Source: Hexactinellida sp. DTS-2022
Taxonomy: Eukaryota; Porifera; Hexactinellida
Direction of reading: 5' to 3'
DNA length: 64,000 bases
NCBI GenBank assembly: GCA_028753945.1
Contig: JAPNXP010000001.1
Location: 15,924,501-15,988,500, forward strand
The notes beneath the pieces were generated by a model that saw only the letters and a list, made by a program, of their open reading frames with translations, did no database searches and was not told the DNA's origin. Shown here piece after piece: positions 1-46,892 of this stretch (positions within the stretch are counted from its first letter, which is position 1; every line of letters begins with the position of its first letter). The translations under genes and the position numbers were made by a program.

Positions 1-341
1 TCTATATATGGCCTGACAGTAGATGTACCAGGGATGCACAAGAAGATGGGAAATTTTAATTTTTAATGTTTTCTATATTGAACTACTAAGTTCTTTATGG
101 GTCTCTAGGTCGTAAACATAACTCAGCAGTGCTAGCCCGTGATTAATATTAGCTGTAATGAGAACGGTGATTGGATTTTCATAATTTAATAGTAATAATA
201 AACACAAACAGTACAATTTCTAATATTAATATACAGTAAATAATACACAATTATTTGCTTTCTTTCCTCTCTCTGGCTCTAGCAGTGACACACGACACAC
301 TTAACTACATAATAGAAATAAGAATAACAGAGTTTTACAAA

Positions 342-1038
342 TCATGGTAAATACAAATAAGTAGACACATAATTAAGAGAATTTCTTAAATTTACGCTTT
401 CTATACTTTTTGAAAGAACCAGCGAGTTATAATTCTTAACTTTGTTTGCAAGAAAGCAATTCGCTGCAGTAAAGACGAGCTTCGATAAGATGTTCCAACT
501 AAACACACCACATCTAATACAAGTAGACTTCCAAATACTTGGATCACGATTATCACTATCTTCCGAATACATCAACGTGAGTTCAACTAGTAATAATTAT
601 TCTAGAAGGTCCACTTACAAGCTTCGCCATCAGCTCTTTATTGTTTTCGATGGCACTAAAGGTCTTCCATATAACAAATATGGAATTCAAAACTGGCTCA
701 GATGGATATTTAATCCGCCACGGTCCGTTAGCTGCATAAGTTTATACTAGGAGTCCAGGTCTAAATCAAGGAGAAATTCTTTATCAACTGTTAGCATATG
801 TACAGACATGACACGGTTTTGTTTGTTTCAGGTACTGATGGACAGTATAGCCTGCAATAAAGGCTAATGATCGAAGAAACTGTGAACCACAATCAATTGT
901 TGATAAATCATTAATCGCATCAAGAAATGGCTCCAAATTGAACTCACCATCAGTAGTGGAATACGCTATACGTAGAAGAAATGACTTAACAAATGACTGA
1001 ATACATAGATTGAAAGGAAGTGTCTTGTTGGTCAGCAA
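342..1038 (-). pseudogene. P transposase C-terminal fragments (copy A)
   Basis: Two open stretches on the minus strand match the C-terminal part of the P transposase at 30948-31574. 784-1038 encodes a piece with EPFLDAINDL and RSLAFIAGYT, like DPFLDALSDV and QSLAFIAGYA there. 342-575 encodes a piece with CIRCG and ANCFLANKVKNYNS, like CPSCN and ANCLIANLVKNYNS there. The pieces lie in different frames with filler between them, so this is a remnant. The mirrored copy is at 3153-3348 plus 7014-7519 on the plus strand, split by the Transib insertion. Confidence 0.7.
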
Positions 1039-1136
1039 ATATGTTTGATTATGCTAGAAAGTTTAAGTCGACGCTCGGTTCAAGGAATTGAAGATAGGAG
1101 ATGTGATAATTAGAACCCGACATCATACGGTATAGA

Positions 1137-1303
1137 CAGTAGCGTAGCCAGCTTTTTTATTCGGGGGGGGGCCAATGTAGTTTCAAATTCTAGTATAGTT
1201 AGTCTCATTAGTTACTAGAAGCTATAGATATAATTGTATCTAATCATCAAAATATTTCGGGGGGGCCATGGCCCCCTTGGCCCCCCCCCTGGCTACGCCA
1301 CTG
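1137..1303. mobile_element. hAT-type MITE (CAGTAGCGTAGCC ends)
   Basis: Imperfect terminal inverted repeats CAGTAGCGTAGCCAGC / GGCTACGCCACTG with G-rich runs just inside, flanked by an exact 8-bp duplication GGTATAGA (1129-1136 and 1304-1311). 167 bp, no coding capacity. The mirror copy is at 2888-3054. Confidence 0.85.
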
Positions 1304-1719
1304 GGTATAGATCGAAATGGTCCAAGGGATTCGTCTGTAGAAAGGAGGACAAGACAACAGATATGTAATTCCACAAGATTGAGTCAAATGATTGGTAATT
1401 TGTGGTAAGGTAATACAAGCATGTCTAAAGCTGGTGTATGTTGTTTACTCAGTTTGCCAAATTTTTCTGGTAAAGTTGCCAAGCATCTAACCAAAACTAC
1501 ATGAGTAAAAAATAGAAATCGCTCGTCATTAAAAGTCAAAGGTCTAGAGAAATTATCGTTCAAACGTATTCCTTTAAAAATGGTGTGTTAAAGCAAGTTC
1601 CTGCAAAACAGATTCAATTTCTCGGATGTCACTAATTGCAGCAATGGAAACGGATATACTCTGTCTATTAAAATAGGCTGAGGTGGATGATAAATAAGCA
1701 TTGATTTCAAGGTACAAAT

Positions 1720-2275
1720 CTACGGAGATATTTTTTCAGCCATTTTAGCGAGAACAAACGTTATGTTGCTTTCATTACGGAACCACACCAACCAACTATT
1801 AGGTAAATAAATCAAGGTTAACTTATCTTTCAAGTCCTGTGGAGAGTTGACCACAAACTTCTCTTTCTCTTGACTCTCGGATCTCAAGCTGAGTTGTAGT
1901 GTTTGGTTCATCAATTCTTCCTCTTTTGCATCGTATGAGAAGCGATTCCGTTTGTAAGGTTTGGATGAGTAATATGCTGGGCAGCCGGGCAGTAAACTTG
2001 GTACAGCGCCTTCTTTCAGCTTTGGCTTTGCCCGCGGTACTTCAGTAAAAGTACCATCTCCTCTTGGGACTTGGAAAGTGTAGTCTATGTTTTCTTTCTG
2101 AAAATGGTTGATACATACATAGACCACCTTCAGGTCACCGATATCCTCGCGACGAAGAGCGCATGTCCAGGCATGATTCAGGGTTGGTGGATTTTGAGGC
2201 ATCTTGAACACAAGGAACATGGTCATCAGGGTTGTAGTTGCTCTTGCATCCGGGGACAGAACACGAGTTAGGCAT
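1720..2275 (-). pseudogene. THAP-domain 5' exon of P transposase, frameshifted (copy A)
   Basis: Reading on the minus strand from ATG at 2275, the product starts MPNSC and has the CxxxxC pair of a THAP zinc finger. The frame then shifts by one base about 20 codons in, and the rest of the domain (VFKMP..., VYVCINHF, GAVPSLLP) continues in another frame to 1720. THAP domains bind DNA through a C2CH zinc site; in P elements the domain recognises sites near the element ends. The same frameshift is in the second copy (7933-8488), so it predates the duplication. Closely related to the THAP exon at 33015-33819 (shared HFxxExxxYT, GDGT, PKLKxGAVP blocks). Confidence 0.8.
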
Positions 2276-2887
2276 GAATAGAAGCTAATATGAATAAAAT
2301 ACCAAAGCGAAATTAAAAGGATGAGATTTTACGTCAATAGAAGAGTTTGGAATAAAATATGATCAATAATTGTATATATTTCAAGAATATTTCTAATTAA
2401 TGTGGTTGATTATGATTATTATTTTTGAAATTAAATATTGTGGTTGGATAAATATTACCATCTTCTCCTTCATCCTTGGTCCACATTTTCTAGGTTACTG
2501 TCAGGCCATATATAGAGTAGGCTATGACAGAGTATATCCGTTTCCATTGCTGCAATTAGTGACATCCGAGAAATTGAATCTGTTTTGCAGGAACTTGCTT
2601 TAACACACCATTTTTAAAGGAATACGTTTGAACGATAATTTCTCTAGACCTTTGACTTTTAATGACGAGCGATTTCTATTTTTTACTCATGTAGTTTTGG
2701 TTAGATGCTTGGCAACTTTACCAGAAAAATTTGGCAAACTGAGTAAACAACATACACCAGCTTTAGACATGCTTGTATTACCTTACCACAAATTACCAAT
2801 CATTTGACTCAATCTTGTGGAATTACATATCTGTTGTCTTGTCCTCCTTTCTACAGACGAATCCCTTGGACCATTTCGATCTATACC

Positions 2888-3054
2888 CAGTGGCGTAGCC
2901 AGGGGGGGGGCCAAGGGGGCCATGGCCCCCCCGAAATATTTTGATGATTAGATACAATTATATCTATAGCTTCTAGTAACTAATGAGACTAACTATACTA
3001 GAATTTGAAACTACATTGGCCCCCCCCCGAATAAAAAAGCTGGCTACGCTACTG
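2888..3054. mobile_element. hAT-type MITE, mirror copy
   Basis: Reverse-complement copy of 1137-1303 with its duplication TCTATACC at 2880-2887 and 3055-3062. It sits at the same place in the P sequence, so it was already in the P element when the two arms came to share their sequence. Confidence 0.85.
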
Positions 3055-3348
3055 TCTATACCGTATGATGTCGGGTTCTAATTATCACATCTCCTATCTT
3101 CAATTCCTTGAACCGAGCGTCGACTTAAACTTTCTAGCATAATCAAACATATTTGCTGACCAACAAGACACTTCCTTTCAATCTATGTATTCAGTCATTT
3201 GTTAAGTCATTTCTTCTACGTATAGCGTATTCCACTACTGATGGTGAGTTCAATTTGGAGCCATTTCTTGATGCGATTAATGATTTATCAACAATTGATT
3301 GTGGTTCACAGTTTCTTCGATCATTAGCCTTTATTGCAGGCTATACTG

Positions 3349-3386
3349 CACAGTGGTCCAGAATGGCGATTATCTTCGAATAGGCA
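3349..3386 (+). repeat. Left terminal inverted repeat of the RAG1-like element
   Basis: CACAGTGGTCCAG (3349-3361), then ten bases, then ATCTTCGAATAGGCA (3372-3386). There are 16 bases between the heptamer and the second conserved block. No obvious RAG nonamer (ACAAAAACC) was seen at 12 or 23 bp. Confidence 0.85.
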
Positions 3387-3409
3387 TTTTACACATCCTA
3401 GGTACATAG

Positions 3410-3670
3410 AATGTATTATTTGGGTATGGGTTATCGACCCTAAGAAAGCGATTGGTGTAATCAGAATTACTGTATGGCTTCAATTTTTTAAATTATGACG
3501 TCATCATATTCAAACAAAATGCCATTTCGTCTCTATAATTGGCTCTAAATGGACAATATACACATATAATGTATTATTTGGGTATGGGTTATCAATCCTA
3601 AGGAAGAGATTGGTATAATCAGAATTCTTGTATGGCTTCAATACCTGTAATTATGACGTCATCAAATTTA
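3410..3670 (+). repeat. Two ~105-bp direct subterminal repeats in the RAG1-like element
   Basis: A segment beginning ATGTATTATTTGGGTATGGG and ending in ATGACGTCATC occurs at 3411-3505 and again, about 80-90 percent similar, at 3569-3663. It lies just inside the left end, downstream of the transposase gene. Subterminal repeats of this kind often bind transposase, but that is an inference here. Confidence 0.75.
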
Positions 3671-3867
3671 AAAAAATTGTCTTTCATATCTAAAATGTTA
3701 TTTATCTTGATAATAGAGTACCGAAATATATTAATTAGGTATATGATGACATTCTAGGATATCAATTGGGATTATTTATTATTTTTAAATATTTATAAGT
3801 TATTAAATTATACAATAACAAGACATTATTATCTTTCTGAGCTTCAACAGTTTACATAAATTTCTTA

Positions 3868-6048
3868 TTAATTACAATCGCTACAGAAACAATTATTACT
3901 ACCTATATCACAAATAATCAGTGAATTTACAAGTAAATCTTGTTGTGACAACTCCTTGGATAAATTTTTGTTTCTCTTGGATTCTACTTTTGTATGACAA
4001 CTTCTCCTAACCATTAGAAGAATAGGATCGCTTTGAGTTACAAGCCTTATAAATATATCTCTAACGTTATCATTAAAGGATGTTTTACGAGCAAGTTTGT
4101 CTCTATAATGGCGTATATGCTTATTTAAAGCTTCGATACACTCCTCAGAGTACAACTTTAACCCGCATCCATTGTTGTACTTGTCGGTAAGTTCAGTGGA
4201 ATGTGCCAAAAGTTTGTGAAGAGAAGGGGTAATGCTGATCCAGGGGAAATTGTTCACTATATACTCATAAGTAGTTTTGCAAAGCATTTCAAGTTTCCCG
4301 ACGTCCAATTTATGGCTACTGTTAAAAACACGAAGTATTGCGCCAAGGTTTGTGTGAATAATTATGAGCTTTTCTTTATCTTCTGGAGCGATAGTGGACG
4401 TAGCCCACCTCAAGAAATCGCGTTTATTGTTAAAACAATCTCTAGCGACGTTTCCAGTGGAACTTGTTCCTCCATCACAAGAAGGTAAATCAATGTGATA
4501 TGAAGTTTCCTTCAATAACAAATTGCGCACTCTGTTCATCGATTTTTGCACCTGGGAGGAAGTTGGTGACCATTTTGTAGTGCCAGCGTCTAAATGATAT
4601 ATAACTAGCATTAGCCATCTAAAAACGCAAAGGTAGCTATGTAGTGGAGAAACAGGTAGGATATCTTTTTCAGATATTGGAGGATGTGTTAACCCGTATC
4701 TCGATTTGGAATCCAATTTCAAGAATTCTTCGTGATTACTCACATCATTAAATAGGATCTTTGCATCATGAATGAAACGATTAATTGGAAATCCATCCCT
4801 TATTAAATTCAAGTCTTTTAATTGCGTGTGGTTAGCAGTACACAACTGGCAACTAGCTCCACCAGCACCGCTCAATGTTGCAGACATTTTTGAATCAAAT
4901 AATGATCTAATTATCCTAACGTTGACATGACCACCAGTAATGTCCAAGCCAGAATCTTCTATTATTGATGTTTGAGGATTTATTAGTTCAGTCATTAAAA
5001 ATTGAACGTTCTGAATATTCTCTTTGAGAGATATCAGGACTACAGGTCTAGTAACATAAGGAGAATTAGGAGTATCGTTTGACCATAATATTTCACAATT
5101 TTTGGATGTTATCTTGAGGATTTTAAAAGCGAAGAGTATGAAATTTTTTGTTGAAAAATCTGTGTTAGTCTGAAGTTGATTATAGACTTTATAGCTGCCT
5201 GATCCATCTAGGCCATCTGCGACATCTATTGTTAATGGAAATTTGGTAGTATCAATACTCAATTGTTTTGACATTCTTTCGGTTGTAAAAGTTAGAATTT
5301 TCGAGTACGCGATACCTACCCCAATTGGATAACCATCACGATGGTTCACAATTTCAATATGACTAGAGAGTGCCAGTTCGCGCCTATAAGTGGCTAGTTT
5401 ATTGTATGTGGGGATTGTAAAACCTTCTGGTTTACAAATGACTCGCAATTCAGTGTATTTTCGTTTACCTATTTCCAGGATATCCATCAATGCTGCTGCC
5501 TTATCAAACTGTAATTTGCAATTCGTTTCTGCTAATACCCCAGTTTCAGCGATTTCTTTGCAAACTTCCGAAGTTTTCCTATCATAATCCTTATTTGCAA
5601 TAAGCTCCAGTGACATTGCTGCTATTTGTTTTGCAGTAACTGACTCTCTTTCAGCAATAAAAGCAATATGATCTAGGAGGATATTAAGTCTGTGTTTCAG
5701 AGATTCCTTCGTTACAGTGCAGATATGTTTCCTAGATTTTAGGACTTTCTCTTCAATGAAGATTTTTTTGCCAGTATCTATTGATTTACCGGAGATAATT
5801 GAACATTTAGACAATTCTAGGTCATCGATAAGTAATTCGCTTTGGGATTGAAAGGGAGTATCATTCCAGCTGTCCAATTTACCATTTTTACGAAATCGCA
5901 CTCGCTCTGAAATTAAGTCCCTAAAACGGTAGCGAAAATGTTCATACTCTGTTTCAGGTAGCTGGAATATCTCCAAAAAATCATTTGTAGCATCATTTAC
6001 ATTTTCATTATGTCCTTTTAAGAGGTTGTATGCTCCTATATTATTCAT
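3868..6048 (-). CDS. RAG1-like / Transib transposase
   Basis: 726-residue open frame on the minus strand with no internal stop. It resembles the RAG1 catalytic core. DGLDGSGS at about 278-285 matches the RAG1 D600 motif. LFDSKM at 383-388 supplies D385, placed like D708 just before the zinc-binding pair. CQLC (400-403) and HKLLAH (611-616) match the RAG1 C727/C730 and H937/H942 zinc ligands. SEECIEALNKHIR (634-646) gives E639 for E962. All three candidate catalytic acids are therefore present. The RAG1 RING/N-terminal region is absent, which fits a Transib-type transposase or a RAG1-like protein without RAG2. The C-terminus ends in a small Cys-rich tail (CFCSDC). Family assignment is by motif; the exact subfamily is not resolved. 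Confidence 0.9.
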   Translation of the reverse strand: MNNIGAYNLLKGHNENVNDATNDFLEIFQLPETEYEHFRYRFRDLISERVRFRKNGKLDSWNDTPFQSQSELLIDDLELSKCSIISGKSIDTGKKIFIEEKVLKSRKHICTVTKESLKHRLNILLDHIAFIAERESVTAKQIAAMSLELIANKDYDRKTSEVCKEIAETGVLAETNCKLQFDKAAALMDILEIGKRKYTELRVICKPEGFTIPTYNKLATYRRELALSSHIEIVNHRDGYPIGVGIAYSKILTFTTERMSKQLSIDTTKFPLTIDVADGLDGSGSYKVYNQLQTNTDFSTKNFILFAFKILKITSKNCEILWSNDTPNSPYVTRPVVLISLKENIQNVQFLMTELINPQTSIIEDSGLDITGGHVNVRIIRSLFDSKMSATLSGAGGASCQLCTANHTQLKDLNLIRDGFPINRFIHDAKILFNDVSNHEEFLKLDSKSRYGLTHPPISEKDILPVSPLHSYLCVFRWLMLVIYHLDAGTTKWSPTSSQVQKSMNRVRNLLLKETSYHIDLPSCDGGTSSTGNVARDCFNNKRDFLRWATSTIAPEDKEKLIIIHTNLGAILRVFNSSHKLDVGKLEMLCKTTYEYIVNNFPWISITPSLHKLLAHSTELTDKYNNGCGLKLYSEECIEALNKHIRHYRDKLARKTSFNDNVRDIFIRLVTQSDPILLMVRRSCHTKVESKRNKNLSKELSQQDLLVNSLIICDIGSNNCFCSDCN

Positions 6049-6984
6049 TATCTTGTCTCGTTGGTTACTGTACGTGCAAAATTGATAGTTGTAAATGCAA
6101 ATGTATTGATTTATTATTTACTCTATTTATATCCTCATTAAACGAATGCATTTATTATTATATGGTTATCTTATGGCTTTGAAGATTTACAGTACAATTG
6201 TGTTTCAATGAATCTTCACTGGCTTTATTCACGATCTTATTAAACTTCAATTATTAACCATTAATTATTAAAAGCGTATCATGTTCATGGTTTCAATAAT
6301 GGAATTGAAACATTTAAATCATGATTTGAAATATTTTTCTATGAGTTCGTTTACAAATTAATACAAGCGTAGATAATCAATCCATTCGTTACTATAATGC
6401 GTGTTATTGTACGAGTATTTTACACTTTCTATTTAACCATAATAAAAAAATATTTTTAGATAAAAAAATTTCTTCTTAAAATGATGTGTACCGCACTCCC
6501 TTCCAGCTGCTAAACGACCATCCGCGCGCCTCCGCGCTACCCTGAACCCTATATGATATCTTTTCAGAATATAATGATCTTTCAAATGAAATTAATTTCA
6601 TCTAACGCTTTGAAACGCGTCAAAAGTTATTACACAATAAACTTCTATTGATAAACTAAATTTCTTTTTAGGTCTTCATGTACTAATATCTACTTACACT
6701 CATCCTTTAGAGCTCTGATGTTGTGTTTATCTTAAAGTACACTTAAAATTGATTTAGAAACATTCCTTCCAAATTTAAAATCCTCCAAATACGAAAGACA
6801 CAAAAATAAGATAGAAAAATTTCAAAAAATATTGTTATTAAATTCTGTTTGCAAGTCAAGGTTTACCAGAGCATAGTCCAAATATATTTACGTTTGATCA
6901 TCAAAAAATTACGGATTCTAGGGTTTTCGACTCCGCTGAAATCGATTATAATAGTTTCGAAACGATTTGACTTGGTCAATTTTT

Positions 6985-7013
6985 TGCCTATTCGAAGATG
7001 CTGGACCACTGTG
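6985..7013 (-). repeat. Right terminal inverted repeat of the RAG1-like element
   Basis: Reading inward on the minus strand: CACAGTGGTCCAG (7013-7001), one base, then ATCTTCGAATAGGCA (6999-6985). There are 7 bases between heptamer and second block, nine fewer than at the left end. Confidence 0.85.
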
Positions 7014-7932
7014 TACTGTCCATCAGTACCTGAAACAAACAAAACCGTGTCATGTCTGTACATATGCTAACAGTTGATAAAGAATTTCTCCTTGATTTAG
7101 ACCTGGACTCCTAGTATAAACTTATGCAGCTAACGGACCGTGGCGGATTAAATATCCATCTGAGCCAGTTTTGAATTCCATATTTGTTATATGGAAGACC
7201 TTTAGTGCCATCGAAAACAATAAAGAGCTGATGGCGAAGCTTGTAAGTGGACCTTCTAGAATAATTATTACTAGTTGAACTCACGTTGATGTATTCGGAA
7301 GATAGTGATAATCGTGATCCAAGTATTTGGAAGTCTACTTGTATTAGATGTGGTGTGTTTAGTTGGAACATCTTATCGAAGCTCGTCTTTACTGCAGCGA
7401 ATTGCTTTCTTGCAAACAAAGTTAAGAATTATAACTCGCTGGTTCTTTCAAAAAGTATAGAAAGCGTAAATTTAAGAAATTCTCTTAATTATGTGTCTAC
7501 TTATTTGTATTTACCATGATTTGTAAAACTCTGTTATTCTTATTTCTATTATGTAGTTAAGTGTGTCGTGTGTCACTGCTAGAGCCAGAGAGAGGAAAGA
7601 AAGCAAATAATTGTGTATTATTTACTGTATATTAATATTAGAAATTGTACTGTTTGTGTTTATTATTACTATTAAATTATGAAAATCCAATCACCGTTCT
7701 CATTACAGCTAATATTAATCACGGGCTAGCACTGCTGAGTTATGTTTACGACCTAGAGACCCATAAAGAACTTAGTAGTTCAATATAGAAAACATTAAAA
7801 ATTAAAATTTCCCATCTTCTTGTGCATCCCTGGTACATCTACTGTCAGGCCATATATAGAGTAGGCTATGACTCTGTCTATTAAAATAGGCTGAGGTGGA
7901 TGATAAATAAGCATTGATTTCAAGGTACAAAT

Positions 7933-8488
7933 CTACGGAGATATTTTTTCAGCCATTTTAGCGAGAACAAACGTTATGTTGCTTTCATTACGGAACCACA
8001 CCAACCAACTATTAGGTAAATAAATCAAGGTTAACTTATCTTTCAAGTCCTGTGGAGAGTTGACCACAAACTTCTCTTTCTCTTGACTCTCGGATCTCAA
8101 GCTGAGTTGTAGTGTTTGGTTCATCAATTCTTCCTCTTTTGCATCGTATGAGAAGCGATTCCGTTTGTAAGGTTTGGATGAGTAATATGCTGGGCAGCCG
8201 GGCAGTAAACTTGGTACAGCGCCTTCTTTCAGCTTTGGCTTTGCCCGCGGTACTTCAGTAAAAGTACCATCTCCTCTTGGGACTTGGAAAGTGTAGTCTA
8301 TGTTTTCTTTCTGAAAATGGTTGATACATACATAGACCACCTTCAGGTCACCGATATCCTCGCGACGAAGAGCGCATGTCCAGGCATGATTCAGGGTTGG
8401 TGGATTTTGAGGCATCTTGAACACAAGGAACATGGTCATCAGGGTTGTAGTTGCTCTTGCATCCGGGGACAGAACACGAGTTAGGCAT
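7933..8488 (-). pseudogene. THAP-domain 5' exon of P transposase, frameshifted (copy B)
   Basis: Same sequence as 1720-2275, shifted by 6213 bases and in the same orientation, including the one-base frame change early in the THAP domain. It belongs to the non-inverted half of P copy B. No downstream transposase exons follow in this half, so the copy is non-autonomous. Confidence 0.8.
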
Positions 8489-8739
8489 GAATAGAAGCTA
8501 ATATGAATAAAATACCAAAGCGAAATTAAAAGGATGAGATTTTACGTCAATAGAAGAGTTTGGAATAAAATATGATCAATAATTGTATATATTTCAAGAA
8601 TATTTCTAATTAATGTGGTTGATTATGATTATTATTTTTGAAATTAAATATTGTGGTTGGATAAATATTACCATCTTCTCCTTCATCCTTGGTCCACATT
8701 TTCTAGGTTACTGTCAGGCCATATATAGAGTAGGCTATG

Positions 8740-9396: not shown

Positions 9397-11021
9397 CATG
9401 GCCTACTATAATACGGCTATACATGCTGCCGAATCATAGTAGAAAATAAGAGTCCAGTTTTGTAATTTAATTCTAAGCTAAACTATGCTTGCTATTGGCA
9501 TAATTTACATTGTGTATGGGGTAATCAGCCATTGCGAGTCCAATGGAACCACATTTGAGATTCTGAGATTTGTGGTTAAGCTGTTTAGGCGCCATTTAAC
9601 GATGACGGTAACAATTTATGGTAAAATGAAAAAAAATTCAAATATCATAAATTTCATTTTCTTCTTACTTTCTAATAATTTTATAACACGAATACTAAAA
9701 TAGGAATTTATTTCATACCCCAAAGGCTACTAAATCACAGAATGGCGACATTCTAAAAATTTTTAAAAATTCTAAAGCAACCACATGCTAAAATACAAGT
9801 ATTATCCGAATTACAACTTACTATTTTCGTCCATAAAATGTATATAATTGCTGGTTTATATATATTCATTCTCATTATATATTCGGAAAATGTGTACTAA
9901 GTATATTAGCAAATTATTTTCATTTTCTCGTAGTTCTTCAGACTCGAATTGTATATTTTGTATATTTGTGATGTCATCGTTAATTGGCGCCTAAACGGCT
10001 CAACCACAAATCTCAGAATCTCAAAAGTGGTTCCATTGGACTCGCAATGTTGATTACCCCATACACAATGTAAATTATGCCAATAGGAAGCATAGTTTAG
10101 CTTAGAATTAAATTACAAAACTGGGGCCATATTCACTAACATTTCTTAAACTTAAACTTAAACTTAAACTTAGTTTAAATTAAGTCTAAACTAAGTCTTG
10201 ACTTAGTTTATGCTAAGTTTATTTACTTCTCAAAACTTATCCAAAAACTTAGTTTTTGCTTAAACTTAAACTTAAACTTAGTCTAAACTAAGTAAAGACT
10301 TAGTTTTGCTTAAACTTAAACTTAGTCTAAACTAAGTAATTACTTACTTTTTGCGGTGTTTTCTTAACTTCTCAAAACTAAACTCAGAGTGATACAACGA
10401 CTATTAGTGATACAACCACGATAAGTTATACGTATAAATACAATTTTCCTTTTGTATAGATGTATATGAGTTAATTGTTGATAGTTTATCGAGTTAACGC
10501 AGCCCAATATATACGAACTTCGTCATATTACATAAAATGGAATTAATGTAGTAATGAAGGATTGAAAATACAACAACTTAAGAAATAATACAGTATTTTA
10601 TGTTTGTATTCTACAAAGAATGCGAGATATAATTCGTAAATAAATTAAATAATTGTAAAATACCGTACAAGTATATTATCGTGAAATATTCAGTTAAGTC
10701 TGGTAAGAAGTAGACTTAACTTTTTGCTTAGTTTTCAACAGAAAACTAAGCAAGAACTAAGTTTTATCTCAAAACTAAGCACAAACTAAGTTCAAACTAA
10801 GTTTAGACTTAGTTTGAACTTAGTTTTGCTTCGTGAATACCGACTTAGTTTCAGACTTAGTTTGTGCTTAAACTTAGTTTAAACTAAGCACAAACTAAGT
10901 TTATGCTTAGTTTAAGCACAAACTAAGTTTAAGAAGTTTAGTGAATAAGGCCCCTGGCAGCTGGACTCTTATTTTCTACTATGATTCGGCAGCATGTATA
11001 GCCGTATTATAGTAGGCCATG
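9397..11021. mobile_element. P-type foldback/MITE element
   Basis: Non-coding, with long arms that are reverse complements. Ends CATGGCCTACTATAATACGG / CCGTATTATAGTAGGCCATG, arms about 200 bp or longer, and a 7-bp duplication TTCTACC (9390-9396, 11022-11028). Terminal CATGGCCTAC matches the CATAGCCTAC ends of the THAP/P elements, and the 7-bp duplication length is the same, so it is probably mobilised by the same transposase. Another MITE is inserted in its right arm (10123-10954). Confidence 0.8.
10123..10954. mobile_element. Palindromic MITE made of AAACTTAGTTT-type repeats
   Basis: Ends GGGGCCATATTCACTAA / TTAGTGAATAAGGCCCC. Next to the ends the arms are dense arrays of TTAAACTTAAACTTAG and its complement, so the whole element can fold on itself. 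It interrupts the arm of the surrounding foldback: the sequence ATTACAAAACTGG|ACTC of the left arm is split here. A related solo end is at 24,390-24,520 (TTAGTGAATACGGCCGCAGCTG). Confidence 0.7.
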
Positions 11022-30631: not shown

Positions 30632-33600
30632 GATAGCGTACTATACATAAGGCCTCACAGTAAAATATGAAATCTGGACCAGGGATGCGGTCGCCGCCGG
30701 GAAACGAAAATTATGGTATTGCAATTTTAGATCAAATATAGTGACTTACTGCTTAAAAACAGCTACCTCAATAACTAACAACTGTAATAAAGTAATACGT
30801 ATACTCTCATTATACCATTAATCTTGTTACTTTGTGAGTTTGATTACAGTCACATAACATACACAATACAGAAAATACTAGAAAACCTCTATTTACTCTG
30901 GTAGATATAGTTACTTCACATAAGACAACTAACTCGTATCTAAATAATCAGGAATCGAACTTTTTCAATTTCCGCTTTCCTAATCCCTTTAAAGTAAGGC
31001 TCGAATTGTAATTCTTGACAAGATTTGCAATTAGACAATTTGCTTCACTCCGAACGAGACTTGATAGAATGGTTGAACCTTTCACATTACAAGAAGGACA
31101 AGTAGTTCTCCAACCTTCAAAACCACTATCAAGACCAGTTAGGGAGCCAAAAGCAAGTGTTACTAAAATCTTTCTAGTTTGACCTTCTATCAACAGGGAC
31201 ATAAGTTCACTATTACTTTGGATTATAGTTAGAATCTTCCAAACAATAATTAAAGATTCCAATGCAAGCTCTGAAGGATACTTTAGATCACCACGATCAG
31301 AAAGCTGCAGTAGTTGGTACCGGAATTCGAAGGATTCATCTACTAGAATATCTTTGTCGATAATTAAAAGATCTCGGCATATTAAGCACGGTGAAGAATG
31401 CTTAAGGTATTGGTAGGCAGCATACCCAGCAATAAAAGCTAGTGACTGGAGTGTTGGGGTATCGAACTCAATGGCTGATACATCTGATAGAGCATCAAGA
31501 AAAGGATCAATGTCAATTTCTGTATCTGTATGTACGCTATAAATGGGAGAGAAAGACTGAATAAATTCCTCCATAGAAATCTGGCTTGGATGGTTGAGTG
31601 TTGGTATTAGAAAATAGAGTTAATAGATTGGAGATCTTCAAACGACGTTCAACTTCTAAAATTTGAAGGTACGAAACATGGTAATTTGATCCAGACATCA
31701 TCCGATAAAGTCCGAAATGGTGCTCTAGTGGATCTGTCTGTAAGAAACGTGTTAAAATGTATTCATATCCACACTGTCCAGTTAGATAATTAACTATTTG
31801 AGGGAGTACAATGCACGCGTGTCTTAAGCTTGTAAAAGTTTGCTTGCTCAATTTGCCATCTTTCAAAGAGTGTGATTCCCAAGTCTCTAGCCAATTTACT
31901 ATCCTGGTTAAAAAGATAAAGCGTTCGTCATTAACTGTGAAAGGGCGACATGAAGAATCATTTAAACGAATATGCTTATATGGAACATTTACATTAAACA
32001 TGTTCCATAACGTGAGTAGAATTTTGACGAAACTAGAGGTGTTTGTTTTCAACTCACTGCAACGTTGATCATTTTGGAGAGCTAGAGCAGCAATCGTGGA
32101 CTCATGGATTACTTTCAGGACTAATTTGACATTTTGGCGTTCCAATACAGAAGGATAACATGATTTAAATGTCAACCGCGGGGCTAATTTTGCAAGACTC
32201 TCCTTCTCTGAGCTATAAAGGGCGCGTACATCTTGGAAAGAAGCGCAGCACACCTTTAAAGGAAATGAACAATAATCTTATAACTGGACTTCAGATTTAG
32301 CCAATTGTTTCGTACAGATTTCAAAATATGGACGAAATCGAAAGTGAGATACAGAGGCCTGTTAGGAACACAAGGATGAGGTACACATGTTTCAAGCTTA
32401 CCAACTGGAGAGAATAGTTTGAATAACTTGACGTTAAGAGGATAGTTATCTGTTGAGATTACATCCACACATAAACCACAAGTTTCGATATCTTTAATAC
32501 AAGCGAGTATGATGGGGAATATCTTCTCAGCGGAAAGAGAGGCACATGGTAATAGACGAACTATAGTAGACCATTTTTTCTGGAGACTTGATACCATAAT
32601 AGCGAATACAGTCTTTATTGGATCTTCTGGGCTTAGACTAGAACCATATATCTTGCCTCCTTTATATGTGACATCAGATTTTACGTGAATTTCGTCCATT
32701 TGCATAACGATATGTTTCTCAGCTTCAGTGAAAGAATTTGTCGCTTGCTTGAGGAAAGGAAAGAATTCACACTCAAGTCCGAATGAAGAATACAACTTCT
32801 CCAAAGTGTTGACATGAGGCAGGGATAGACAAGCCATTTGTTGAAGATACTTATAACATGCTGGTGAAATTAAATGTGCTTTAAGTGCCATAACCTGTGT
32901 GAGGATGTTGTACCTCCGCCTGTTTTTGGGTACAATACTGTTTTCAAGCTGACATTGGATGAATTGAAGCCTGGATATTTGGGGGAATCAGTTAGTTAAG
33001 TTAAAACTCTAATTCACCATTAGAAGAAAGTACTTTGTTAATGAGTAGTTGGATATTGTCCTTCGCTAAAGATAAAGTCTCATTAACGGTCTTTGAAACA
33101 GATTCAGTGGACAGAACAGGACGAGGGGATATAGAAATCTCACAGAGAATTGATTCAAGGTGTCGTATATCGCTGATTGAGCAAATTGGAATTGGTAAAA
33201 TTTCTCCATTACGATAAGCTCTAACTGACAAATCGAAGGACACTAATATATGGGTGTTGACAATGATATTGTGTTCTGTCAGTAGAGGTAGCATATAAAT
33301 TAGACTATGATCATCTGGGTACCATAAAGACCATGTTTTAGGTAGGGAAAGCAAAGGTAACTTAGCTTGGATATCCTGGAAACAATTGATCTGATATTTC
33401 TCTTTCTCTTCGCTCTCAGATGCCAGGCTAAGTGTTAATGCTTCATTGAACATTTCCTCATCTTTTGAGGTAGGTGACACACATCTGCGCTTTTTGGAGC
33501 TAATAGATTGAGAACAGATTGAAGGGTGCCATGGTAGAAAAACTGGAACGGCACCATCTTTTAGCTTTGGGTTGACTCTTAGAATTTCACGATAAGTACC

Positions 33601-34232
33601 ATCTCCGTTTGGAACTTTGTGAGTATACTCAACATCCTCCTGGCGAAAATGATTTACACACACGTAAACCCCCTTGAATGATTGTAAATCGTCTCTTCGA
33701 AAAACCTGAAGCCATCTGTGTCTTAGGTCATCTGGTTTCGTAGGTAGTTTAAAAACTGGGACACGGTGATCGTCGTTGTAGTTGATTTTGCATCCGAAAA
33801 CGGCACAACTGTTGGGCATCGTTAGAAAAAACTAATAAATTATGGTAGTAGCATAAATCAAATTATAAGGTTAATTAATTAATAGGGAAATGGGCTCTGT
33901 AGGGGTATTGTACTAATGGGAATGACATAAATAAATAACAAGATGGATTATTTAGCTGTAGAGCGTAATAAAAGTAAAATTTGCTATGTATGTTATATAC
34001 CATAAACCACTTATTTATATTATGGGTGAATAACAACACAAAATTCTAAAATTAGCTTTGCGGTTAATATGCATATTTTTCGATATATATCGACTGCTAG
34101 TCACCGGAATATCTGTTTTTAAGCGGAATGTCACTAAAGTTGATAAAAATTGCAATTTCGTTTCCCGGCTGCGACGCATCCCTGGTCCAGATTTCATATT
34201 TTACTGTGAGGCCTTATGTATAGTAGGCTATG
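30632..34232 (-). mobile_element. THAP/P-type DNA transposon, nearly complete
   Basis: 3,601 bp. Left end GATAGCGTACTATACATAAGG, right end (inverted) CATAGCCTACTATACATAAGG, followed on both sides by GCCTCACAGTAAAATATGAA. Flanked by GTATAGC (30625-30631, 34233-34239), a 7-bp duplication. Carries a THAP-RNase H-like transposase gene on the minus strand in four blocks. Same family as the composite at 1-8739 but diverged. Inserted in a Harbinger-type MITE. Confidence 0.88.
30948..33819 (-). CDS. P-element transposase (THAP9-like), probably not functional as read
   Basis: Cuts and joins transposon ends; nuclear. Blocks on the minus strand: 33819 to about 33015, THAP domain (C5, C10, C54, H57; GAVPVFLP) then a linker; about 32960-32256, RNase H-like start with MQMDEIHVKSDVTY and ISTDNYPLN, holding two candidate catalytic Asp residues, plus LTFDFVHILKSVRNNW; 32253-31537, with TDPLEHHFGLYRMMSGS, the likely catalytic Glu; and 31574-30948, the C-terminal part with QSLAFIAGY, CLIC and CPSC pairs. 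The THAP block ends near a donor-like GTGAAT and the next begins after an acceptor-like ATATCCAG, giving a 47-base intron whose phase I could not reconcile. The second and third blocks are out of frame by one base at about 32,260, and third and fourth overlap in different frames. All key residues remain. Confidence 0.82.
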
Positions 34233-41439: not shown

Positions 41440-42946
41440 TCATATTTGGTAATCTTCTAAGTATTTGGGCAAGCGACGTTCACGTTGAGGTCGAGTACAA
41501 CTTTTTCCTATGAATTCACTTGGTTTCTTAGGCTTAGGGGTAGATGATGTCATCTTCGTAGGAGTCGAGTTAATGAAGCTATAATCTGAATCCATAGATA
41601 ACTGTAGTTGAGAATCAATTGGAACTATGTCGTAAAATGACCTATTTCGAAGTGAACCATCCATTCGAAGACTTGTATTAGTCGCTTCTTGTAATGATTG
41701 ACTCTTTTCGGTTACATTGTCTAACGATCTATAATGATTAAGTGAATTATTTGTTTCTGTAGTCTTATTGCGATCTGTTTGAATAAGCGATTGGTTGAGA
41801 TTATGAATGCCATTTCCCTCTCGTCTAACATGTGGTTGTAATCGATTAACATGAACCACTTTAACTCTACCATCTGTGTTTTTAATTAAAACATCCACTG
41901 GGCCTTTAACTTGAGTCACCAACCATCCTCCCTCCCATCTGTCTGCAAGTTTCTTAGAAACTCCAGAATGTGGAAGGGAAAGCCAGACACTGTCTCCGAC
42001 TGTAAACCTTAGTGAATTCCTCGAGCTCGTGTGTGCATCATAACATTCCTTCTGTCTATGCTGTGCCTGTACCAAATTCCCTTCGACAAACTCACGTATC
42101 TCGATCAGTTTCCTTCGCAAGAATAGTTCATAAGAAGTTTGGTTGCATTCTGCTGGAGTTAGAAACTGCGTTATGACAGGTGGGTCTCGCCCATACATTA
42201 ATTGGAAAGGTGAAATACCAGTACTAGAATGTTTGGAAGTCCGGTATGATAGCAAAACTAAGTGTAAATACTTCTCCCAATCTTCGTTCTTTTCCACGTA
42301 ACATCGGAGCATTTGAAGGACCGTCCTATTGCTCCTTTCAACCAGAGAATTTCCCTGAGGATGATAAGGGGTAGTACGAGTTTTACGGATTCCCAACGAC
42401 CTACAAGTTTCTTTCAAGAGGCAAGATTCAAAATTCCGTCCTTGGTCGGAATGGAGGAATTCAGGGATACCGAATCTAGCAAAGAAGTCGACCAATATAT
42501 TCGTAATGGTCTCAGCCTTCTGATCAGACATTGGAATGCATTCCAGCCATTTTGTAAACGCGTCCTCGACTACTAAGATGAATCGGTGTCCCTTTGTACT
42601 AACAGGAACTTCAAGAACGTCCACGTTAACTAATTGCATCGTTCTCCCAATTGGAGTATTGAGTAATGGGGCTCTGACCGGTAAAGGTAGTTTAGCTTTT
42701 TGACAAGTTTCGCAAGAGGTCACATACTCGTGGATATCAGAGCTCATTCCAACCCAAAATCCTAAATATTTTGCACGACTAAGAGTGCGTTCTACGCCTT
42801 GGTGACCGGCATCGTCATGGGCTTGACATAGTAAATCTTGTTTCAGTGTATCAGGAACAATGATGACACTTCGTAAGTAGGAAAATGGTTCAATCTTGTA
42901 GTTACGAGTTAAAACTCCATTAATTAATTGTAATTGTGATTGAATC
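41440..42946 (-). CDS. integrase part of the Ty3-type fossil
   Basis: Fossil integrase: HHCC zinc region (HxxxGHxG...CxxC), DDE core with VDVLEVP, SDQGRNF and PQGNSLVERSNRT, and a C-terminal SH3-like/tail region. Integrase after RT is the order that defines Ty3-type elements. Confidence 0.88.
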
Positions 42947-43748
42947 CAGGGATGGATCCAGCACAAAATATCTGGGGGGGTGCCAAGCCCAGAATTGGGC
43001 ATTAGAATTGTGGACGCCGTAGGAAGCGCCAGCGAGTCAAATGTGCCAGTTTTTGGACGTTCTTTTTTTAAGAACTGCCCTTGAGAAAGCAACTTTCAAG
43101 AAAGTTGAAATATATTTAATACACGTCAAAAATCTATTCTAAATTCATACAAAACTGTAAATTAATAATGATTGAATTAAACTATCAGTTAACCAACAAT
43201 CACAATGAATCAACAGTTAACGATTTTTCCTGATATTTGATATATAACGTTCCCAAAAGTACTAACAGAAAAGATTGGGAAGAGAACTCTCATATATTTC
43301 TCTCAACCAATCTCGGGAATTTTGCCAGTCCCTAGATATACTTTGGGATTATATTATCATATTCTTGGTGGGGGGAAGTGGCGTATCCAGGATTATCGTG
43401 AGGGGGGTGCTCTGGAGCGAACGAAGCGAGCAACGGTAAGGGGTGATCTGGGGGGAACCCCCCCCAGATTTTTTTTTGAATCTTAGACGCTCAAACATCG
43501 ATGTACAGCTATTCTTGTCACATAGTAGGAGGAATGTAATATTGTGCAGTTGTACCAAACTAACCAAAGACGTTTAGATGTTTAGGTATTATAAATAACA
43601 ACATATCCCTTTTGGAAACCAGTTATGAGGGGGGTGTTTGAACACCCAAATCCCCCCCTGGAAACGCCACTGGGGGGGTTCGAACTCCCCCTGAGCCATT
43701 TTGGGGGGGGTGCAACCCCCCTGAACCCCCCCGGTGAATCCATCCCTG
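42947..43748. mobile_element. hAT-type MITE inserted in the Ty3-type fossil
   Basis: Ends CAGGGATGGATCCAGC / GGTGAATCCATCCCTG with exact 8-bp duplication ATTGAATC (42939-42946, 43749-43756). Contains another hAT-like unit with ends CAGTGGCGTATCCAGG-like and CCTGGAAACGCCACTG (about 43,377-43,672) and many G/C runs. Confidence 0.88.
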
Positions 43749-46023
43749 ATTGAATCTGCTTAAAACGCTTGAGTATCGGTTGGTTCCACTTGACACCAGA
43801 GAATCGTAGCCGAGTTTGAATAGCCTCGAGCTCATATAATACATTGCCTAATACAGGGTCATCAAGCTGTTGTTGTCTAATCATTTCCATAGTAGGTAAA
43901 CGTGATAATTCCGTGAGCGCACAATGCTTGTGATTTTCGTTACCAGCTAGAATTCCAAAATTATATGAAGAACGCGATAAAGCATCTGCATTTTCATTGT
44001 CAGTTCCTTTGCGATATCGAATTACAAAGTCATACTCCTGTAATATTACAGCCCAACGCCATAGTCGTCCGACACTCTTTTGCTTCTCCAGCCATTCTAA
44101 TGGCTTATGATCAGTGAGTATTTCGAACTGCCTTCCTAATAGATAATGTCGAAATCGCTTCACGGATTCGACAATCGCAAGACACTCTAATTCAATAGTG
44201 CTATAATGTTTTTCTGCAGTCCTCAATCCCCTGCTATAGTAAGCCACAACATGTCCTTCTTGTTCCAAAACTCCCCCCAATCCAGTTCCACTCGCATCCG
44301 TACACAATACGAACTTTTTCGTGAAATTTGGGCAAATTAGAACTGGGTTCGATGCCAATTTTTCCTTAAGTTCTGCGAATGATTTTCCTGCATGTGCATT
44401 CCAAGAAAATATAATATCCTTAGCTAACAAGGAATTCAGTGGTTCTGCGATGTTTGCAAAGTTCTGGATATACCGCCTATAATAATTCGCTAAGCCTAAA
44501 AATTGTTTCAATTCTTTCTGACTTGTAGGTTGTGGCCAGTTTACAATTGATTCCACCTTGTTTGTCTGTGGTGCCATTCCTTTATCAGAAAAAGTGTGTC
44601 CTAAGTAGGTAACAGATTGCTTTCCAATTACACATTTTCTTCCCCTTAAAGTCAATTTGTATTCACGAAGCCGTAGGAAAACCTGCATTAAATCTCGTCT
44701 ATGTGACTCCAGATCCGGTGAAAATACTAGTATATCATCAATGAAATTGTCTTTACAATGTTCAAGTCCACATAATACCTGATCCATAACTCTTTGAAAA
44801 TAGCTCGGTCCACCTGTAAGCCCGAATGGCAATACCTTAAACTCATAAAGTCCCATTCCAGGTCCTGGAGAAAACGCTGTTTTTTCACGATCCATTTCCC
44901 TAATGGGTATTTGCCAATACCCAGAATTCAAGTCAAGTTTTGTGAAGTATTTCATTCCGCTTAGTTTGTCCTGAACCTGATCCGGGAGCGGCAGCGGATA
45001 TGCATCTTTCTGAGTTACTTTGTTTAAGTTTCTATAATCAATACAGAATCGTATACTTCCATCTTTCTTCTCAACTAACACCGGTGGGGCAAGCCAGGGA
45101 CTGCTTGAAACTTGTATAACGTCTTTACTCAACATCTCTCCAATCTGAGACTTCATCTCATCTTGATAGGCTTGTGGAATCATTCGCGGGGGAACTTTCA
45201 CCGGAGCTGCATTACCTGTACGGACAGGAAAGGGATCGACCTTTGCCACGCCAGGTAGAGTAACAAATAAATCTTGAAACTTCAGTACTATCCCTGAGAA
45301 CTCTTCTTCTGTGTCTGGGTACTCAATCGAAGGTGAGCAGTCATACCTAGGAATTGCCCCCAAACACTCCCAGTCTTCTTCTTGTTCTTGATCTGTCGAT
45401 CTTAAGACTGCATAAGATCCTGGACATTTTTGTTCATCATGTATTGGACAAGTGTGATTCACGCGTTGCGGACTATCTTGCGAATCCAAAGACTTTACTA
45501 TACCAAGGTTTGGTCCAGTAGCAACTCTATTAAAAAAATCCAGGTTAATTTGATGCCTTGCTAAAAAATCCACGCCCAGGATGCAATCCGTTATTAGAGA
45601 AGGTGTTATTGTGAATTTTTGTGGCGAATGAAGTTTTCCAATTTTAATTTCCAATTCTACTTCACCCAAGGATTCCATTGTATTTCCAGAAGCAGTAAAT
45701 GACAACTGTTCCGTAGGGGTAGTTCTTGCATTCTTGACTTTCTTAAATATTGAATTCGAAATAAGGGATACCGATGAACCACTATCCAGCATAACGTTAC
45801 AATTAGTATTTCCGATCTTCGCTACAACCTTCAATGGTTGAGTAGGTTGGCACAAAGCTACAATTGATTCTCTGGAGTACTGATTTATGGATTGAGCCAT
45901 ATTTAATATCTCTGGGACCTTGTTTCGGCTCTCCCAACAAGTCCCTGAGAGTTTAAACTTTGTCCAGTCGCGGGTTCGGTACAGTATCTCATTATATGTC
46001 CTAATTGATTGCAATTGTAACAA
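43749..46023 (-). CDS. protease-RT-RNase H part of the Ty3-type fossil
   Basis: Fossil pol region: aspartic protease (MLDSGSS), reverse transcriptase with FIDDILVFS, and RNase H with TDASGTGLGG, in the order protease-RT-RNase H. The region is separated from the integrase part by the MITE at 42947-43748. Confidence 0.88.
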
Positions 46024-46892
46024 CGCACTTGTGTAATTCGACGTTGACTACTCGGCTGGTTCGTAGATCGTCTCGAACTTGGACAGATTTGAGCGTAATG
46101 TCCTCTTCCTCCACACACGTAGCACTTAGCATAGCCAGATTTCTTATTTTCGACAAAGGATCGTCCACCTACTCCTCTCTGTACCGCACACGTGATTTCA
46201 TCAGATGTTACCCCCAACTTTTCGGTAATAACCTTAACCGCTTCATTGATAGCCGCTTGTGAAATGTTTTTTTCACTCGCTTCTTTATTCGCGGTTTCCG
46301 CTTGCAAATTATCTATCGAAATCCTAGAGCTAATAACAGCCACCTCTTCAGAGCTTCGAAGTGACGCCTCTTCATGCATCCGAATCACTAATTGAGCCCG
46401 TTTCATTGCATCCTCGCTTGTTTTGACATCTGGAGATGTGCGAATGTTTTCGTAAACATGTCTGGGCAATCCACGAATGAACTGTTCAAATAGGAGCTGT
46501 TCTTTGGCCTCTAGGATCATTTCTGGAAAGGCTCTTTTCAGTAGCCTTTTCAGTTCGTAGAGATATTTTTGAGGAGACTCTCCAGGGTAGATCCGCCGTT
46601 CGTGAAATTCACTTAACGAAGTGAATTTAATATCTTCTGGTTTAAACGCTTTTTGTAGAGCAGCTTTAATGTTGCCATACTCTCTTTCATCATTCTCAAG
46701 AGACTTGTACACTTCAAGTGCCTCTCCCTTCAGGCAAGTTGCTATCATCAGGGCTTTCTTTTGAATTGACCATTCGTTGGCCAGAGAACAAATCTCGAAG
46801 TGGTCCATAAAATCGTCAATATCTCCATTCTCAAATTTGTCAACTTGTACAAACTGAGCCATATTTAAACTACAACCACTCTCTGCTACCAA
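45903..46892 (-). CDS. gag part of the Ty3-type fossil
   Basis: Fossil gag-type frame of about 329 codons with a retrotransposon-gag capsid-like region and two CCHC zinc knuckles (CYVCGGRGHYAQIC, CYNCNQLGHIMRYC). It overlaps the pol frame in a different frame, an arrangement common in this family. Confidence 0.85.
   Translation of the reverse strand: MVAESGCSLNMAQFVQVDKFENGDIDDFMDHFEICSLANEWSIQKKALMIATCLKGEALEVYKSLENDEREYGNIKAALQKAFKPEDIKFTSLSEFHERRIYPGESPQKYLYELKRLLKRAFPEMILEAKEQLLFEQFIRGLPRHVYENIRTSPDVKTSEDAMKRAQLVIRMHEEASLRSSEEVAVISSRISIDNLQAETANKEASEKNISQAAINEAVKVITEKLGVTSDEITCAVQRGVGGRSFVENKKSGYAKCYVCGGRGHYAQICPSSRRSTNQPSSQRRITQVRCYNCNQLGHIMRYCTEPATGQSLNSQGLVGRAETRSQRY

Follow-up and report, generated by a model that had tools for sequence, protein, structure and literature searches.

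The stretch of DNA analysed here (the window, 64,000 nucleotides) spans positions 15924501-15988500 of contig C1 in the genome assembly of the glass sponge Hexactinellida sp. DTS-2022 (112.4 Mb in 18 contigs) and carries a 3,665-bp transposon of the Transib superfamily together with an empty copy of its target site. RAG1, the antibody-gene recombinase, is thought to descend from the Transib group. The element consists of a transposase gene enclosed by two unlike ends that start with the same heptamer and by a 5-bp target site duplication (TSD). Its features, with those of the empty site, are as follows.

3349..7013, no strand assigned: Transib transposon, 3,665 bp, recognized by CACAGTG at both ends, a 5-bp TSD and matching copies elsewhere
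3344..3348, + strand: TSD TACTG, left copy, flanking the element
7014..7018, + strand: TSD TACTG, right copy, flanking the element
3868..6048, - strand: transposase open reading frame (ORF), 726 aa, with D281, D385 and E639 and the zinc ligands C400, C403, H611 and H616
5578..5733, - strand: region resembling the nonamer-binding domain (NBD) of RAG1, about residues 106-157, from a profile match to 3gna
3349..3361, + strand: outer end element CACAGTGGTCCAG, left end (behind the stop codon), identical to the right end
7001..7013, - strand: outer end element CACAGTGGTCCAG, right end (5' side of the gene), identical to the left end
3374..3385, + strand: inner box CTTCGAATAGGC, left end, at end position 26, 9 bp deeper than at the right
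6986..6997, - strand: inner box CTTCGAATAGGC, right end, at end position 17, from the comparison of the ends
6978..6985, - strand: A-rich stretch at right-end positions 29-36, from the base table of families
3404-3526 and 3562-3684, + strand: two subterminal direct repeats of 123 nt each, 85% identical, within the Transib behind the stop codon
832..858, - strand: empty target site kept in the P-like host element, on its inverted arm, from the arm pairings and copies of the P-like family

The CACAGTG ends, the TACTG on both sides and the coordinates of the element are as a first-pass annotation, made from the sequence alone, had described them, and its 726-codon open frame was recovered at 3868-6048 on the minus strand. 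No second gene was found inside the element, the next longest ORF being an antisense frame of 95 aa; the description of the insertion as lacking RAG2 is thus true of this element. A genome-wide search with a RAG2 profile gave no match, but it gave none in 14 control genomes either.

Residues and domains of the transposase

The catalytic acids had been given as D278, D385 and E639, of which the second and third are correct. D385 is retained in 40 of 41 aligned rows (20 sponge-type and nine insect-type Transib proteins and 12 RAG1-like, or RAG1L, proteins), the single asparagine being in an insect-type row, and E639 is a glutamate in all 35 rows that reach the position. D278 was rejected as the first catalytic aspartate: although sponge-type and RAG1L rows also have D at this position, all nine insect-type rows have W, whereas D281 is an aspartate in 41 of 41 rows. 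The catalytic residues of the Helicoverpa zea transposase HzTransib, given in excerpts of PMC6941560 as D126, D225 and E436, correspond to chain positions 109, 208 and 419 and align with D281, D385 and E639. The proposed zinc ligands in CQLC and HKLLAH were confirmed as C400/C403 and H611/H616, all kept in every row that reaches them, bar one tyrosine in a RAG1L row. From the zinc-binding CxxC to a later conserved LH, the window protein has 66 residues, within the 65-66 found in 20/20 sponge-type rows; the same stretch measures 67-69 residues in 12/12 RAG1L rows and 30 in 9/9 insect-type rows. Near the N-terminus, a profile assembled from pieces of 12 of 23 relatives matched the NBD crystal chain 3gna (E 4.6e-6) and other RAG1 chains (E 2.8e-6), and an NBD equivalent in Transibs has already been published (PMC9435367).

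Reading of the C-terminus showed that the window protein lacks the zinc knuckle of CTT1. The motif CX2CX3GHX3-5C, which we take to be CTT1, is present in all three RAG1L tails compared and in 7 of 14 other loci of this genome with the C-terminus read, which represent 6 of 13 families (L031/L033, L034, L038, L040, L041 and L047; loci carry L numbers throughout). It is degenerate in L044, L045 and L048, missing from L029, L032 and L037, and unreadable in L036.

The two ends across Transib families

The two ends of the window element have identical outer 13 bp, and the inner 12-bp block follows after 3 bp at the right end or 12 bp at the left. Other copies carry the same ends, so that differing ends, one of the two outcomes that the first-pass annotation had named as refuting it, did not occur. 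Among 20 fetched loci of the window's DNA family, 13 are two-ended and seven have one end only; CACAGTG is exact at both ends in 11 of the 13, one of the remaining two having CACATTG at one end (L018) and the other being degraded, and further heptamer variants within the family are CATAGTG in L021 and CACAATG in L028. A perfect 5-bp TSD flanks 8 of the 13, with imperfect or shifted duplications in L010, L012, L014 and L022; L024 is degraded. Full-length copies reside on contig 18 (99.9% identical) and contig 10 (99.4%), four further long or partial copies (L012, L013, L021 and L023) are 97-99% identical, and the identity of other copies falls to as little as 88%. A single internal deletion, common to five copies of 1.7-2.0 kb, has removed most of the gene; four of these copies have perfect TSDs, and all five have kept both unlike ends.

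At least 14 diverged families with both ends are present in this genome, with 37-69% protein identity between them. Sixteen further two-ended elements from families other than that of the window were delimited by a CAC start, similarity between the two ends and a TSD match; L030, L036, L039, L045, L046, L047 and L053/54 were left out for want of such a pair. When the elements are reduced to 14 families, all 28 ends start with CACAGTG, and perfect 5-bp TSDs flank 23 of 30 two-ended elements overall, both rates being somewhat selected outside the window family, where the TSD match helped to choose the ends; the shift of the inner block played no part in that choice. No preference for GC-rich targets was seen in 22 perfect TSDs (41% GC). 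Several loci group into near-identical copies (L030/L031/L033, L034/L035, L039/L040 and L037/L043, 98-99% protein identity, several of them stop-free), and on these sequences more than one Transib family looks young.

The ends follow a common plan, in which CACAGTG is followed by a family-specific stretch and then by an inner box, and the box lies at unequal depths. All 14 families were placed for this shift, and 12 were covered by a shuffle test. In 12 families the inner box is deeper behind the stop codon, and 11 of these have an offset of 9-10 bp: the shift is 9 bp in eight families (L009, L029, L031, L034, L037, L042, L044 and L049/50), 10 bp in three (L038, L040 and L048) and 14 bp in L051/52, which was scored from an earlier start position. 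No clear shift was found in L032 (-2; 16% of shuffles reach the score) or L041 (-1; 9%). All 12 shifted families thus have the long spacer on the same side, behind the stop codon. A shuffled end yields a shift of 9 or 10 with a chance of 0.03-0.08 per family, and the observed score lies beyond 5% of shuffles in nine of ten shifted families tested (L038: 7%).

The same two spacings emerge from loci that had been fetched for transposase or family-1 DNA and not for the spacing of ends. In 718,542 bases of these loci plus the window, CACAGTGG followed by GGRARTAG occurs in 26 cases, 2 at a spacing of 9, 6 at 10, 13 at 19 and 5 at 20, and at none of the other 27 spacings within 2-32. Both strands and overlaps were counted, identical contexts once and near-identical copies of one family separately; the histogram covers boxes of this spelling, and thus neither the window's own family nor the short end of L051/52 (spelled GGAAATGG, at what would be spacing 6). 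The two spacers therefore lie about one helical turn apart, by 9 bp in the window element and as 9-10 and 19-20 bp after CACAGTGG elsewhere. TSD-flanked elements in which both spacers are readable have one short and one long spacer in 7/7 cases (L037 with four of its five TSD bases). One of these seven is a 1,160-bp non-autonomous Transib nested within a window-family copy (L012, 4257-5416), flanked by CAATT duplications and with spacers of 20 and 10.

Two further properties of the ends were noted. At positions 9-13, the two ends of one family have 4.2 of 5 bases in common, against 1.6 of 5 across families (permutation p 1e-5), and therefore this stretch changes in step at both ends. Beyond the box, A is the most frequent base from position 29 to 33 of the right end (7-10 of 12 tabulated families), a pattern to which the left end has no counterpart.

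These data permit a tentative proposal, one that we hold at clearly less than even chances: that the Transibs of this glass sponge obey a rule akin to the 12/23 rule without RAG2, by which an end with its box at ~10 bp must pair with an end with its box at ~20 bp through the NBD-bearing transposase. The mechanism sketched here draws on the anatomy of the element and on the biochemistry of HzTransib and RAG, described in part in PMC6941560 and PMC11844651. By analogy, a transposase dimer would grip both heptamers at its DDE sites, positions 9-13 would provide family specificity, and the NBD-like region would contact the inner box, the A-rich stretch or both. Synapsis would need one long-spacer and one short-spacer end; the paired ends would be nicked at CAC, hairpins would form on the flanks, and insertion would proceed with a 5-bp stagger, as for HzTransib and RAG. 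With the box one turn deeper on one side, the two ends would be held differently by the enzyme, just as 12 and 23 signals are by RAG.

Alternatively, the asymmetry could well be functionless baggage, a single ancient insertion of 9-10 bp in one end that has simply persisted, to which we assign a substantial probability that stops somewhat short of even. The families share ancestry and are thus not independent trials, so that the offset does not count afresh in each; the additional bases of the long end (~AATGGCAATT) show partial conservation themselves and could act alone; and the offset is 14 in one family, with none that stands out in two others. Mere persistence, however, sits uneasily with an offset that has stayed within 1 bp in 11 of 14 families despite the divergence of their proteins, with the turnover of outer positions 9-13 while the offset stayed, and with the retention of one end of each kind by non-autonomous derivatives.

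Age and placement of the insertion

The first-pass annotation had pointed to an empty site at 832-858, and this site is real. Positions 1-847 pair with 7014-7860 and 843-1665 with 2526-3348, both at 100% complementarity, and the two arm pairings overlap by exactly the five TSD bases; 1-1665 therefore reproduces the target exactly in inverted orientation, with TACTG present once, and preserves the empty site inside the window. The label of a P arm is plausible, as an adjacent ORF holds a THAP domain (E 7.7e-8). The P-like (THAP) element occupies window positions 1-8733 in the order A'-B-A-B, A' (1-1665) being the exact inverted counterpart of the arm targeted by the Transib, and the two B parts (from 1658 and from 7871) repeat each other in direct orientation, with an exact match of at least 300 nt. 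The insertion target is part of a P-like repeat family, and the copies listed for it are 95-100% identical. A 301-bp query over the insertion site returned 40 matches (40 of 299 candidates scored), one of them the window's own arm; all of the remaining 39 cross the site uninterrupted, and 36 cover the whole query.

Were the palindrome and its empty site an assembly artefact, the recency of the insertion would be unproven, and the exact identity of the arms over 1,665 bp, with the window beginning inside one of them, might be read that way. We regard this as improbable: the listed copies of the P-like repeat span the site without interruption, and therefore empty sites exist independently of the palindrome. 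Recent insertion, as the first-pass annotation had proposed, is supported by two observations: the flanks match the empty site at 100% identity, and another full-length copy in the genome is 99.9% identical.

In a single-sequence search of solved structures, the transposase matched HzTransib with an E value of 6.8e-23, amphioxus RAG1L with 9.2e-7 and mouse RAG1 with 0.013; a profile of 23 relatives raised these matches to 3.5e-44, 1.2e-15 and, for RAG1 chains, 1.2e-14 to 1.4e-12. The Pfam RAG1 profile gave 16.7 bits on the window protein, under the 25-bit cut-off. Elsewhere in the genome, the top match of that profile is a 698-aa open frame (G000:C2:3229569-3229790, E 1.5e-6), which is not among the matches listed for the window transposase.

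Database searches yielded 42 relatives (best 8000 candidates scored), of which the six with a named organism are all from the glass sponge Oopsacas minuta, at a best identity of 53%, so that these transposon proteins by themselves point to a glass sponge host other than Oopsacas; among viral contigs, none of 28 pattern matches for Transib relatives was confirmed by tblastn. A maximum-likelihood tree was computed from 41 rows: 20 sponge-type (16 from this genome and four from Oopsacas), nine insect-type Transib (seven from named insects; Hydra, ctenophore and bacterial Transibs are not among the rows) and 12 RAG1L. In this unrooted tree, the sponge-type, insect-type and RAG1L rows each split off on a branch of their own (support 100/99, 100/100 and 100/100), so that the window protein does not fall within RAG1L, and the four Oopsacas rows take four separate places among the families of this genome. 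On average, a tree distance of 5.10 separates the window protein from insect-type rows, and one of 6.73 from RAG1L. The transposase thus lies within the Transib/RAG1 lineage, as the first-pass annotation had it, and nearer to Transib by sequence searches and tree distance.

Transibs have been split in two, with Subgroup I having asymmetric ends, an alpha11-alpha12 region in the zinc domain and a CTT1 tail, and being closer to RAG1L (PMC9435367); in a tree rooted with bacterial Transibs, its other members fall outside RAG1L (PMC9435367). Two of these three traits are present in the window element, namely the unlike ends and the long zinc-domain stretch, the latter judged by length alone (66 residues vs 67-69 in RAG1L and 30 in insect-type rows). 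That the element is instead a RAG-like (RAGL/ProtoRAG) transposon which lost its RAG2-like gene (RAG2L) is very unlikely: the long zinc-domain stretch, the DGxDG motif containing D278, the RAG1L-like knuckle of sister families and the lack of a root in the tree speak for it, but HzTransib is much closer by sequence, tree distances to insect-type Transibs are shorter, all 12 RAG1L rows group together with full support and exclude the window protein, the element has no RAG2-like ORF, and the shared features have been described as an ancestral condition of Subgroup I Transibs (PMC9435367), so that this was rejected as the main reading on sequence searches, tree grouping and tree distances.

With high confidence, then, we interpret the element as a Transib-superfamily transposon of the cut-and-paste kind that lacks RAG2, was inserted recently and stands near the published Subgroup I. 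Its sequence is nearest to Transib, the DDE equivalents are in place, and its ends start with CAC in a heptamer resembling that of the recombination signal sequence (RSS), next to a 5-bp TSD. Several points weigh against this interpretation. The window family lacks the CTT1 zinc knuckle, a published mark of Subgroup I. The unrooted tree provides three groups and distances, from which a sisterhood of sponge-type and insect-type Transibs does not follow. Finally, the window copy is the only one with a complete frame among the matches listed (62 of 975 candidates scored), the other listed copies of its family having interrupted or partial frames, and the 99.9% identical copy carries two in-frame stops, so that the source of transposase could be nearly extinct. 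The transposase may be active and the window element, as the first-pass annotation suggested, possibly still mobile.

Further transposon and repeat sequences were noted elsewhere in the window. These comprise THAP and TNP-like transposase pieces over several ORFs (30948-33819), Ty3-type gag-pol ORFs with gag, protease, reverse transcriptase, RNase H and integrase (41440-46892), a long hAT-like transposase ORF of 786 aa with DUF4371 and a hAT dimerisation domain (53161-55521), and closely packed short repeats, both direct and inverted, around CTTAGTTTAAACTAAG (10130-10930).

Known systems

The origin of the two unlike V(D)J signals is disputed, having been placed with RAG2, in a ProtoRAG-like ancestor or in Transib ends (PMC9435367 and excerpts of PMC8355894 and PMC8289069). 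Asymmetric ends are already known in this lineage: AanRAGL of Aureococcus anophagefferens has 13-bp and 10-bp elements with 4 or 13 bp between them (PMC9435367), ProtoRAG has spacers of 27/31 (PMC8289069, in excerpt), and some Drosophila and Anopheles Transibs are described as 12/23 (PMC8355894, in excerpt). In the open-licence literature, we found no report of end spacing and polarity being nearly uniform across many families in a single genome, with the RSS heptamer exact, and none of Transibs in sponges. Sponges are not named in the main text of PMC9435367 (Tao et al. 2022), two glass sponge genome papers are indexed with no occurrence of Transib, and passages of PMC4298943, PMC3902484 and PMC13337447 mention Transib and sponges only apart (PMC4298943 through the transposon Spongebob).

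The element itself is a young member of a known group, and its special value is the family background around it. The first-pass annotation was correct apart from one residue; to it the present analysis adds D281 as the catalytic aspartate, the finding that the two ends differ systematically, and the traits of Subgroup I. At least 14 families with the exact RSS heptamer provide natural replicates, though related by descent, for the question of whether a RAG1-type enzyme alone pairs unlike ends. If the proposed 12/23-like rule without RAG2 is true, the V(D)J rule would predate RAG2 and be inherent in the transposase lineage.

Among known systems, Transib Subgroup I (PMC9435367) resembles the window element in its single transposase gene, asymmetric ends, zinc stretch of RAG1L length and NBD-like region, and it shares the zinc knuckle with 6 of the 13 sister families read; the window family differs in lacking the knuckle and in ends that bear the exact RSS heptamer. 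HzTransib, presumably of Subgroup II, has the same DDE residues and zinc ligands and is the best match among solved structures, but insect-type rows, including one with 92% identity to HzTransib, have a zinc stretch of 30 residues vs 65-66 in sponge-type rows, and the HzTransib ends are called symmetric in excerpts of PMC8289069. Symmetric Transib ends have been described with 20-22 bp spacers before a nonamer-like sequence (PMC8355894, in excerpt), which fits the right end with its A-rich stretch at ~29-36. AanRAGL has a 13-bp outer element, an inner element of 10-12 bp and a 5-bp TSD like the window element, and its spacers of 4/13 bp differ by 9, as do those of 3/12 bp here; unlike the window element, it has RAG2L, and its element sequences are different (PMC9435367). 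As for the 12/23 RSS themselves, the nonamer ACAAAAACC was not found at these Transib ends, where the inner box is ~GGAAATAGG, the spacing is ~10/20 bp and the A-rich stretch is confined to the right end; nevertheless, both systems share the heptamer CACAGTG, a bipartite signal and two spacer lengths about one helical turn apart.

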